DNA of 64,000 nucleotides from Bernardetiaceae bacterium (lineage in GTDB: Bacteria; Bacteroidota; Bacteroidia; Cytophagales; Thermoflexibacteraceae): positions 20,756 through 84,755 of the forward strand of contig JANWVT010000015.1 of the NCBI GenBank assembly GCA_025056255.1, written 5' to 3'. The notes beneath the pieces were generated by a model that saw only the letters and a list, made by a program, of their open reading frames with translations, made no database searches and had not been told where the DNA came from. Below, piece by piece: positions 2,444 through 14,048 of this stretch. The position numbers and the translations under genes are program-made. Each line of letters starts with the position of its first letter. Position 1 is the stretch's first letter.

Positions 2444-2632
2444 TTAAGTCTGTTTTTTGCCGAAATAAAAAAATGACAATATCGAACCAATTAGTATCAG
2501 TATCAGAGAGCCCCACACATAACCTTTCCCAAACTCTGTTAACTGAGTATAATAAGGGAGATATTGCAGGGATTGCACCGCACCGAGAATAATGAGAAAA
2601 CAGCCTATTATAAGTGAAGCAATGCGCAACAT
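2444..2632 (-). CDS. Small two-TM-helix membrane protein, hypothetical
   Basis: 62 aa with two hydrophobic helices (MLRIASLIIGCFLIILGAV... YVWGSLILILIGSILSFFYFGKK). Confidence 0.45.
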   Translation of the reverse strand: MLRIASLIIGCFLIILGAVQSLQYLPYYTQLTEFGKGYVWGSLILILIGSILSFFYFGKKQT

Positions 2633-2677
2633 AGGTCAGAGATAGTGCTAACAGGTTAGTAGTTGTACATAGTAAGT

Positions 2678-2714
2678 AAAAACATCCCGAAGAAAGTTTT
2701 CGGGATGTTTTTAT
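2678..2714 (-). terminator. Rho-independent terminator downstream of the Bor-like gene
   Basis: aaaacatcccgaa-gaaag-ttttcgggatgttttt perfect stem with flanking A/T tracts. Confidence 0.75.
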
Positions 2715-2735
2715 AGTCATATCTTGGTCAACAAG

Positions 2736-3051
2736 CTATTTTTTTACAATAGTGGTGGTAGGAGTGTAGAGCCCGCCTGTAATAGCATTTAGAAGTCCAT
2801 CTACAAAAGTATGTACCACAGTCACAGTGTAATCTGTAGCACCACCTGCCATTTTGGTTGGGTCAGAAGTATTAATAGGTGCCAAACCGAATAATAGATA
2901 ATGGTTTTTAGCTCTTACTTCTACACCCGACTGAGCACCTTTACCTACATTGTAGGTATAAAGTGTAACAAGAAGTGGTAAAAAAGGATAAAAAGATAAT
3001 ACAACCAATGCTCTGCGCAATAAATGCTCTGAAGGTTTTAATGGTATTCAT
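2736..3051 (-). pseudogene. Bor-family (lambda Bor/Iss-like) lipoprotein gene, apparently frameshifted by one base
   Basis: ORF 2736..3020 encodes KNHYLLFGLAPINTSDPTKMAGGATDYTVTVVHTFVDGLLNAITGGLYTPTTTIVKK, Bor-like; ATG at 3051 in another frame gives MNTIKTFRAFIAQSIGCIIFLSFFTTSC signal peptide/lipobox; deleting one A of 2960-2962 joins them. Confidence 0.65.
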
Positions 3052-3640
3052 TTTAGGGTACTTGTTAGTAAATTATAAATATTGCCTACTCTTTGGCTTT
3101 TCGGCATCCGCCACCTGATTGTTAAGGATTTCGGTGTTGTTCCTTTTTATTGCAAATTATTAATTTTTCTAAATTAAAAAACATTTTAACAGTTAATTAA
3201 CAAGTTTTTAACAAAATACTTACAATGCATTCAGAGCGTCATATAAAATCAATACGAGGCATGTAAATAAATAAATATAAGTAAATTTATAATTTCGAGC
3301 ATATATTACAATCAGCTCCCACCTGAAACTATTACCCGAGTACAACAACCCCACAAGGCTTTAAAAGCCTGTTAAACTTGTTCGTGATACATTTTGAAGT
3401 GTGACAAGAAGTGTGAATCTGCGAAATAGGATGAATATTTTAGCAAAAACTATCCAGCAAGTTGACATCTTTTTAAAAGATAGGCAAAAAAACAACAAAC
3501 ATTCACGGGTGCGAATAAATGTTTACATAAATACACCATATCTTACAAGCACAGAAGAGAAAATCACTTCTGAATTAATAGTTTTTTGTGGTTAAATTCG
3601 TCAAATATTTAGTACAAGGGCATCGATACAGCAGAAAAAT

Positions 3641-12157: not shown

Positions 12158-12880
12158 TTATCTACTTTCTGTGTTGCCTGCTTTTTCAATTAGCACCAAA
12201 TAGCGAAATGCCCAGTGCCAACTGATTTGCCAGCGATGAGGCGCTAAGGGTTGCAACAGCTGTTCTAATTCATGCCTGCGAAAAGCTCGCAAAACCGAAA
12301 GAGGAGCATCGTGTTGTACCAAATAAGAACCACGTAGCATGCGCGTTAGTAAGCCAATGCCGTAATATGCCAGCGGATGGCGATGCAAGTCGTTGATAAT
12401 GATTCCTTTGCGAGCTTGTTGCAACAGTTTGGGTAGTAGTTGCGCCAGTTGCTCATCGGTGAAGTGGTGGCAAAAAAGGCTCAATACAAATACATCGTGC
12501 TGTACGGTGCCAAACTCTTCCGACCACAAGTCCATGCAGCGGTAGCGAATAATAGGTAGGTGTCGAGGGTGCGACTCGGCATATCGAATCATAAAAGGAT
12601 TGGCATCATAGCCAGTTAGTTGTAGGTCAATGCGCTTTTTGTGTGCCCATTGGGCAAAGCAGCGCAACGTATCCCCTCCACCGCAACCTACATCTGCTAC
12701 TGAAAGTGGTAAATGGCTGCGCGCCACAAAATATTTCAGTCCTTTGAGTGCTACAGCATTGCCTCCCAAGTAGGTATTGATATATTCAAGTTCGCGAAGA
12801 TTGGTTGCAAGTGCCTGACTGTCGAGTGTGAGGTCGTCCATCAGCTCAGGCTGATAACTGCGACGGCTAAAATGCGGCAT
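12158..12880 (-). CDS. Class I SAM-dependent methyltransferase
   Basis: VADVGCGGGDTLRCFAQWA SAM-binding motif I; overlaps the upstream PKS gene by 14 bp. Confidence 0.88.
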   Translation of the reverse strand: MPHFSRRSYQPELMDDLTLDSQALATNLRELEYINTYLGGNAVALKGLKYFVARSHLPLSVADVGCGGGDTLRCFAQWAHKKRIDLQLTGYDANPFMIRYAESHPRHLPIIRYRCMDLWSEEFGTVQHDVFVLSLFCHHFTDEQLAQLLPKLLQQARKGIIINDLHRHPLAYYGIGLLTRMLRGSYLVQHDAPLSVLRAFRRHELEQLLQPLAPHRWQISWHWAFRYLVLIEKAGNTESR

Positions 12881-14000
12881 AGTGGCAACAAGTATTTTGT
12901 AGCTGCAATATAGCCGACTCCATTGTTAGCCCCGGACCAAAAGCAGCGGCTAATACGTAAACTTTCTTTTCTGTCTGTGCTTGTTGGCGAAAGCTGTCGA
13001 GAAAATGTTTCAACACGAAAATAATCGTAGCAGAAGACATATTGCCATATTGTTGCATTACTTCATATGCCCAACGGTTTTCGTGCGGTGAAATGCCTAA
13101 GCCCATTTCTATTTCGGTCAAAATTCTTTTCCCTCCCGGGTGAAAAACGAAATAATCAATCACACTGAAAGGAATTTGCCATTTTTGGGTGGCTTGTTCT
13201 ATCAAAGGTCTGATTTTATTGCCTAAAATAGCAGGGACATATGCCGAGAGCTTCATTTCAAAGCCAAAATTGCCAATGTACCAAGCCATTTCTTTGTTAC
13301 TCTCTGGAATAATCCCGCTGTAAAATCCTTCCAAAGAAAGCAATCCTTGTTCTGGCCTAACACATTCCACAAGTACACTTGCTGCCCCGTCGGCAAAAAT
13401 AGCGTTTGCCAACAGCTGGTCTTCACTGTTAATTTTCTGAAAGTGCAAAGTACAAAGTTCTACATCTACAATGAGTACCTTGGCATCGGGGTAGGCTTTG
13501 CAGATAGCCGTAGCTGCTTGAAGCGCATTAAAAGCCGCATAACACCCCATGAAGTAAATACACGTTCGCTGTACCGATGGTGGTAGTCCCAACAGTTGAA
13601 TCAGGTCTATATCTAAGCCGGGAGCATACATGCCTGTACAACTAACCGTAATTAAGTGTGTAATTTGCTCAAAACAATCAACTGGCAAGCCCATATTTTT
13701 CACTGCAGCTGCTGCCAGCAAAGGTGCTTCGGATTGATAAATCCGCATGCGGTCTGCCGTAGAAGGAAAAGGCTCCAAATTTTCTGTTAAGGAGAAAAGT
13801 TTGCGCTGCCCACAATCAGAAAAGTCGGGAATAACACTGTAGCGGTTTTGAATACCTGTGGCGCGGTAAATTAATTTTACTTTTCTTATCTCGGCAGCAG
13901 AAAGCGCCAAGGTGGTTGCTATCCACTCGGATGCAAATTCCTGCCCAATGGCATATGTAGGAACTGCTGTACCGATGGCTGTAATGTGCGGCTTACGCAT
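12867..14000 (-). CDS. Type III polyketide synthase (chalcone/stilbene synthase family)
   Basis: Thiolase-fold; candidate triad Cys (YFMGCYAAFNAL), His (FVFHPGGKRIL), Asn (YGNMSSATIIFVL); start MRKPHITAIGTAVP at 14000, alternative 14030. Confidence 0.9.
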   Translation of the reverse strand: MRKPHITAIGTAVPTYAIGQEFASEWIATTLALSAAEIRKVKLIYRATGIQNRYSVIPDFSDCGQRKLFSLTENLEPFPSTADRMRIYQSEAPLLAAAAVKNMGLPVDCFEQITHLITVSCTGMYAPGLDIDLIQLLGLPPSVQRTCIYFMGCYAAFNALQAATAICKAYPDAKVLIVDVELCTLHFQKINSEDQLLANAIFADGAASVLVECVRPEQGLLSLEGFYSGIIPESNKEMAWYIGNFGFEMKLSAYVPAILGNKIRPLIEQATQKWQIPFSVIDYFVFHPGGKRILTEIEMGLGISPHENRWAYEVMQQYGNMSSATIIFVLKHFLDSFRQQAQTEKKVYVLAAAFGPGLTMESAILQLQNTCCHYAAF

Positions 14001-14048
14001 TAAGCGAGTTTTTTGATTAATTTGCATCAATTTAACAAAAAATGTGAA

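Follow-up and report, generated by a model that had tools for sequence, protein, structure and literature searches.

The split reading frame described here is best explained by a real and recent one-base insertion just past the lipobox cysteine, which probably disabled the sole Bor-family lipoprotein gene in this Bernardetiaceae genome and left a young pseudogene. The gene lies on the minus strand of the window, that is, the whole stretch of 64,000 nucleotides that was analysed (Table 1). The frame opened by ATG 3051 reads MNTIKTFRAFIAQSIGCIIFLSFFTTSCYTLYLQCR and stops at a TAA (2943-2941), its signal peptide ending in TTSCYT, while the Bor domain follows in a frame offset by one base, which is open from TTG 3020 to 2736. 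A one-base skip at the TTT 2962-2960 joins CYT in frame to YTYNVGKG; across the shift, the start of the Bor domain directly adjoins the lipobox cysteine. The extra base was placed in or next to this TTT, the exact base being uncertain within the few surrounding ones. When the 154 nt between the leader and the junction were dinucleotide-shuffled 20,000 times, an ATG-started lipobox peptide ending at the junction arose in only 2 cases, and we therefore do not attribute it to chance. The sequence-only reading had correctly described the lipoprotein leader with its early stop, the overlapping Bor-domain ORF devoid of a lipobox, and the joining of both by deletion of one A from the AAA at 2960-2962. 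Its "textbook" lipobox is indeed a lipobox, although with T instead of L at position -3 (permitted by the PROSITE-type pattern used in the shuffle test), and the "homopolymer" that it placed at the shift, a run of three Ts, hardly deserves that name.

Table 1. Features of the Bor locus and its surroundings, in window coordinates.
Feature	Position	Strand	Evidence
Second hairpin of the leader, upstream (ACCGAAATCC...AGGT), conserved in the genus with compensatory change	3114..3139	-	Leader alignment
DUF805b RNA (RF02914), cis-regulatory leader	3083..3114	-	Covariance model 43.4 bits, gathering score 35.6
Lipoprotein signal peptide, ATG start, lipobox TTSC, 36 codons then stop	2941..3051	-	Translation; 2/20,000 shuffles by chance
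Bor-domain ORF (PF06291), in a different frame from the signal peptide	2736..3020	-	Translation, Pfam match
TTT (AAA on the plus strand), point where the frames part	2960..2962	-	One base more than the G002 orthologue (alignment)
Strong hairpin (CATCCCGAA/TTCGGGATG, A5/T5 flanks), likely terminator 3' of Bor	2670..2720	-	Fold -19.6 kcal/mol, z -9.0
62-aa membrane protein, homologous-looking by eye to the ORF after Bor in G002 (conserved neighbour)	2444..2632	-	

The assignment to the Bor family is well founded, since both the 94-aa ORF with its TTG start and no lipobox cysteine (78.5 bits, E 4e-22) and the joined reading (79.1 bits, profile positions 1-74), whose comparison with Pfam had been proposed from the sequence, are above the curated cut-off of 25 bits for Lambda_Bor (PF06291). 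Bor has been linked to serum resistance in lambda and E. coli. In common with the Lambda Bor/Iss family, the locus has a Bor domain far over the gathering score and a lipobox cysteine that would directly precede it, as it does in the relatives; it differs in its chromosomal place in Bacteroidota, where phage structural genes were not seen alongside, and in having the signal peptide and the domain in separate frames. A lipoprotein signal peptide with its cysteine in the same frame ahead of the domain was found in 29/29 relatives and is absent here and, because the frames separate just past the cysteine, we file the gene as a broken member of the family rather than a working one.

Bor is present in 30 of 297 genomes of the phylum, with no internal stop among the matches listed, and in only two of 13 genomes of the family, namely that of the window, in which no further copy was found, and the same-genus genome G002 (contig JANWWZ010000016.1 of the Bernardetiaceae MAG SKYG34). 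Searches of the other same-genus genomes G001 and G003 returned no Bor. All 29 loci of other genomes whose N-terminus could be read were uninterrupted, with a hydrophobic leader and a lipobox cysteine just ahead of the domain; three more could not be read by the script, at least two of these being close to a contig end. The window's Bor gene is the exception among the relatives read, none of which lacks a lipobox or starts at an internal Met, the arrangement that the sequence-only reading had named as contrary to its own. The G002 orthologue is about 70% identical in protein, is preceded by a leader RNA of the same type and followed by a similar small membrane ORF, but is encoded in one intact frame without the extra base, and a TM2-domain gene stands between its leader and Bor.

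The age of the lesion can be judged from the same orthologue. Over the 75 codons past the shift, the window and G002 differ at 10, 7 and 43 first, second and third codon positions, respectively, with 37 codons changed synonymously and 13 non-synonymously; a second lesion was not seen in this part of the gene. Differences falling mostly in the third position indicate that selection acted on the gene until recently, and the codon-position pattern argues against a long decay; together with the absence of a second lesion, this mark of long selection indicates that the shift is either young or not real. If it is a young pseudogene, as we favour, transcription would still begin at the conserved leader and translation from ATG 3051 would terminate after 36 codons, the product being a tiny lipopeptide, CYTLYLQCR once processed. 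The lipidated Bor domain would not be made, and presumably none would be found at the outer membrane, a dispensable lipoprotein having lost its function through the insertion. We infer for this that the extra base is truly chromosomal and that the Bor domain is not produced from another start.

A sequencing or assembly error, with the gene intact in the cell and encoding a normal Bor-like lipoprotein, is the strongest competitor, possible but less likely than the pseudogene. It would explain equally well why the remainder of the gene is undamaged, which counts against the pseudogene, and is in keeping with an otherwise well conserved gene whose leader and probable terminator are in place, and with a draft assembly of 107 contigs, some of only about 500 bp. 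Nevertheless, three Ts are not an error-prone homopolymer, and an error-rich assembly is unlikely. When about 638 kb of sequence from this assembly were compared with proteins encoded by roughly half of the G003 genome, of the same genus (202 aligned blocks, 213.5 kb), no verified frameshift besides that of Bor was found in the approximately 213 kb of aligned coding DNA; by the rule of three, this limits the rate to less than about 1 in 70 kb (95%). Candidates at L090, L091, L084, L183 and, in the comparison with L005, L087 were rejected as over-long reference ORFs running across gene boundaries, or as non-coding or antisense. No frameshift was found either in the split-looking neighbour genes checked in the window, whose overlapping ORFs belong to different families and are therefore not split genes. 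One isolated error is compatible with this bound, a further point counted against the pseudogene, and is possible because the Bor gene was chosen as the odd one out; assembly error, one of the causes offered by the sequence-only reading, thus keeps its place as a single event.

Recoding or slippage (programmed +1 ribosomal frameshifting, transcriptional slippage or phase variation) that yields the joined protein is very improbable, even though both halves of the gene look maintained. The junction offers TTT only, rather than a long homopolymer or repeat that could restore the protein by phase variation, and the only longer T runs (T5 at 2994 and T6 at 2985-2980) precede the cysteine, where slipping loses the lipobox; at the T6 it would give FLPLLVTL without cysteine. 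Unlike prfB-type +1 sites, the junction has no stop codon, and neither the frame arrangement nor the site is conserved, the relatives being single-frame and G002, of the same genus, being without the extra base. Among the four causes proposed from the sequence, it is thus the pseudogene that fits best, and phase variation and slippage were not sustained. A re-started gene, in which the ORF 2736..3020 is translated from TTG 3020 into an uncleaved, membrane-anchored Bor protein, is equally hard to credit: MRRALVVLSFYPFLPLLVTL does resemble an N-terminal anchor, but the spacing from the DUF805b leader is close to the usual one for ATG 3051, not for TTG 3020, and all readable relatives are lipoproteins. 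TTG 3020 is probably not the true start. Least likely of all is a genuine extra base that the cell passes by means of an unrecognised +1 recoding immediately past the lipobox, which, if true, would tune the amount of lipoprotein exported.

The choice of start draws support from the leader. From the end of the DUF805b RNA to ATG 3051 there are 31 nt, near the 16-29 nt that in most cases separate the motif from the ATG of the next gene in other genomes of the order, which makes ATG 3051 a plausible native start. The RNA scores above the gathering score of its family, from which it differs in that a second covarying hairpin lies directly in front in this genus and that the gene downstream is here Bor. 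This further hairpin is common to nine leaders of the genus, and in the structure predicted by RNAalifold each of the two hairpins has one pair alternating between G-C and A-U, in 6:3 and 5:4 sequences. Leaders of the DUF805b type with a second, covarying hairpin immediately upstream (window 3083-3139, minus strand; L003:1008-1067; L092; L093; L011; L012; L022; L031; L077) stand before genes of various kinds, many of which code for a signal peptide or a lipobox, and up to 10 matches occur in a single genome (G012). The window's own genome has a second, weaker match (G000:C19:122055-122086, the L077 leader), followed by an ORF in which no signal peptide is obvious (MNLIAKLCMDYLREEGYVPKL...). 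At the other end of the gene, the likely terminator was missed by a consensus terminator scan and seen in the fold, probably because the A/T arms of the hairpin also pair. Farther along the window, a type III polyketide synthase (chalcone/stilbene synthase-like; 12867-14030, minus strand) is followed by a methyltransferase gene (12158-12880).

In the sister genomes G001, G002 and G003, a TM2-domain gene lies downstream of the closest leader, and in G002 Bor comes after this gene. In the window's genome the TM2 gene is absent from the locus and the leader is placed immediately ahead of Bor (window 3051-3083 versus L005:4586-5005), the only other TM2 match being weak and within a 323-aa frame elsewhere; the simplest reading, ahead of a gain in the other genomes, is that the TM2 gene was lost in this lineage. 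With Bor absent from G001 and G003 and the TM2 gene missing here, the Bor locus is unstable in this genus.

Most likely, therefore, the locus reflects ordinary gene decay or, less likely, a single sequencing error, and a regulatory trick is not the likely cause. The finding is mainly a matter of annotation, since automatic calling would assign the Bor protein an invented start and leave it without a signal peptide. The two-hairpin DUF805b-type leader, which stands before varied and often secreted or lipoprotein genes and swaps its downstream gene within the genus, may outweigh the frameshift in usefulness.
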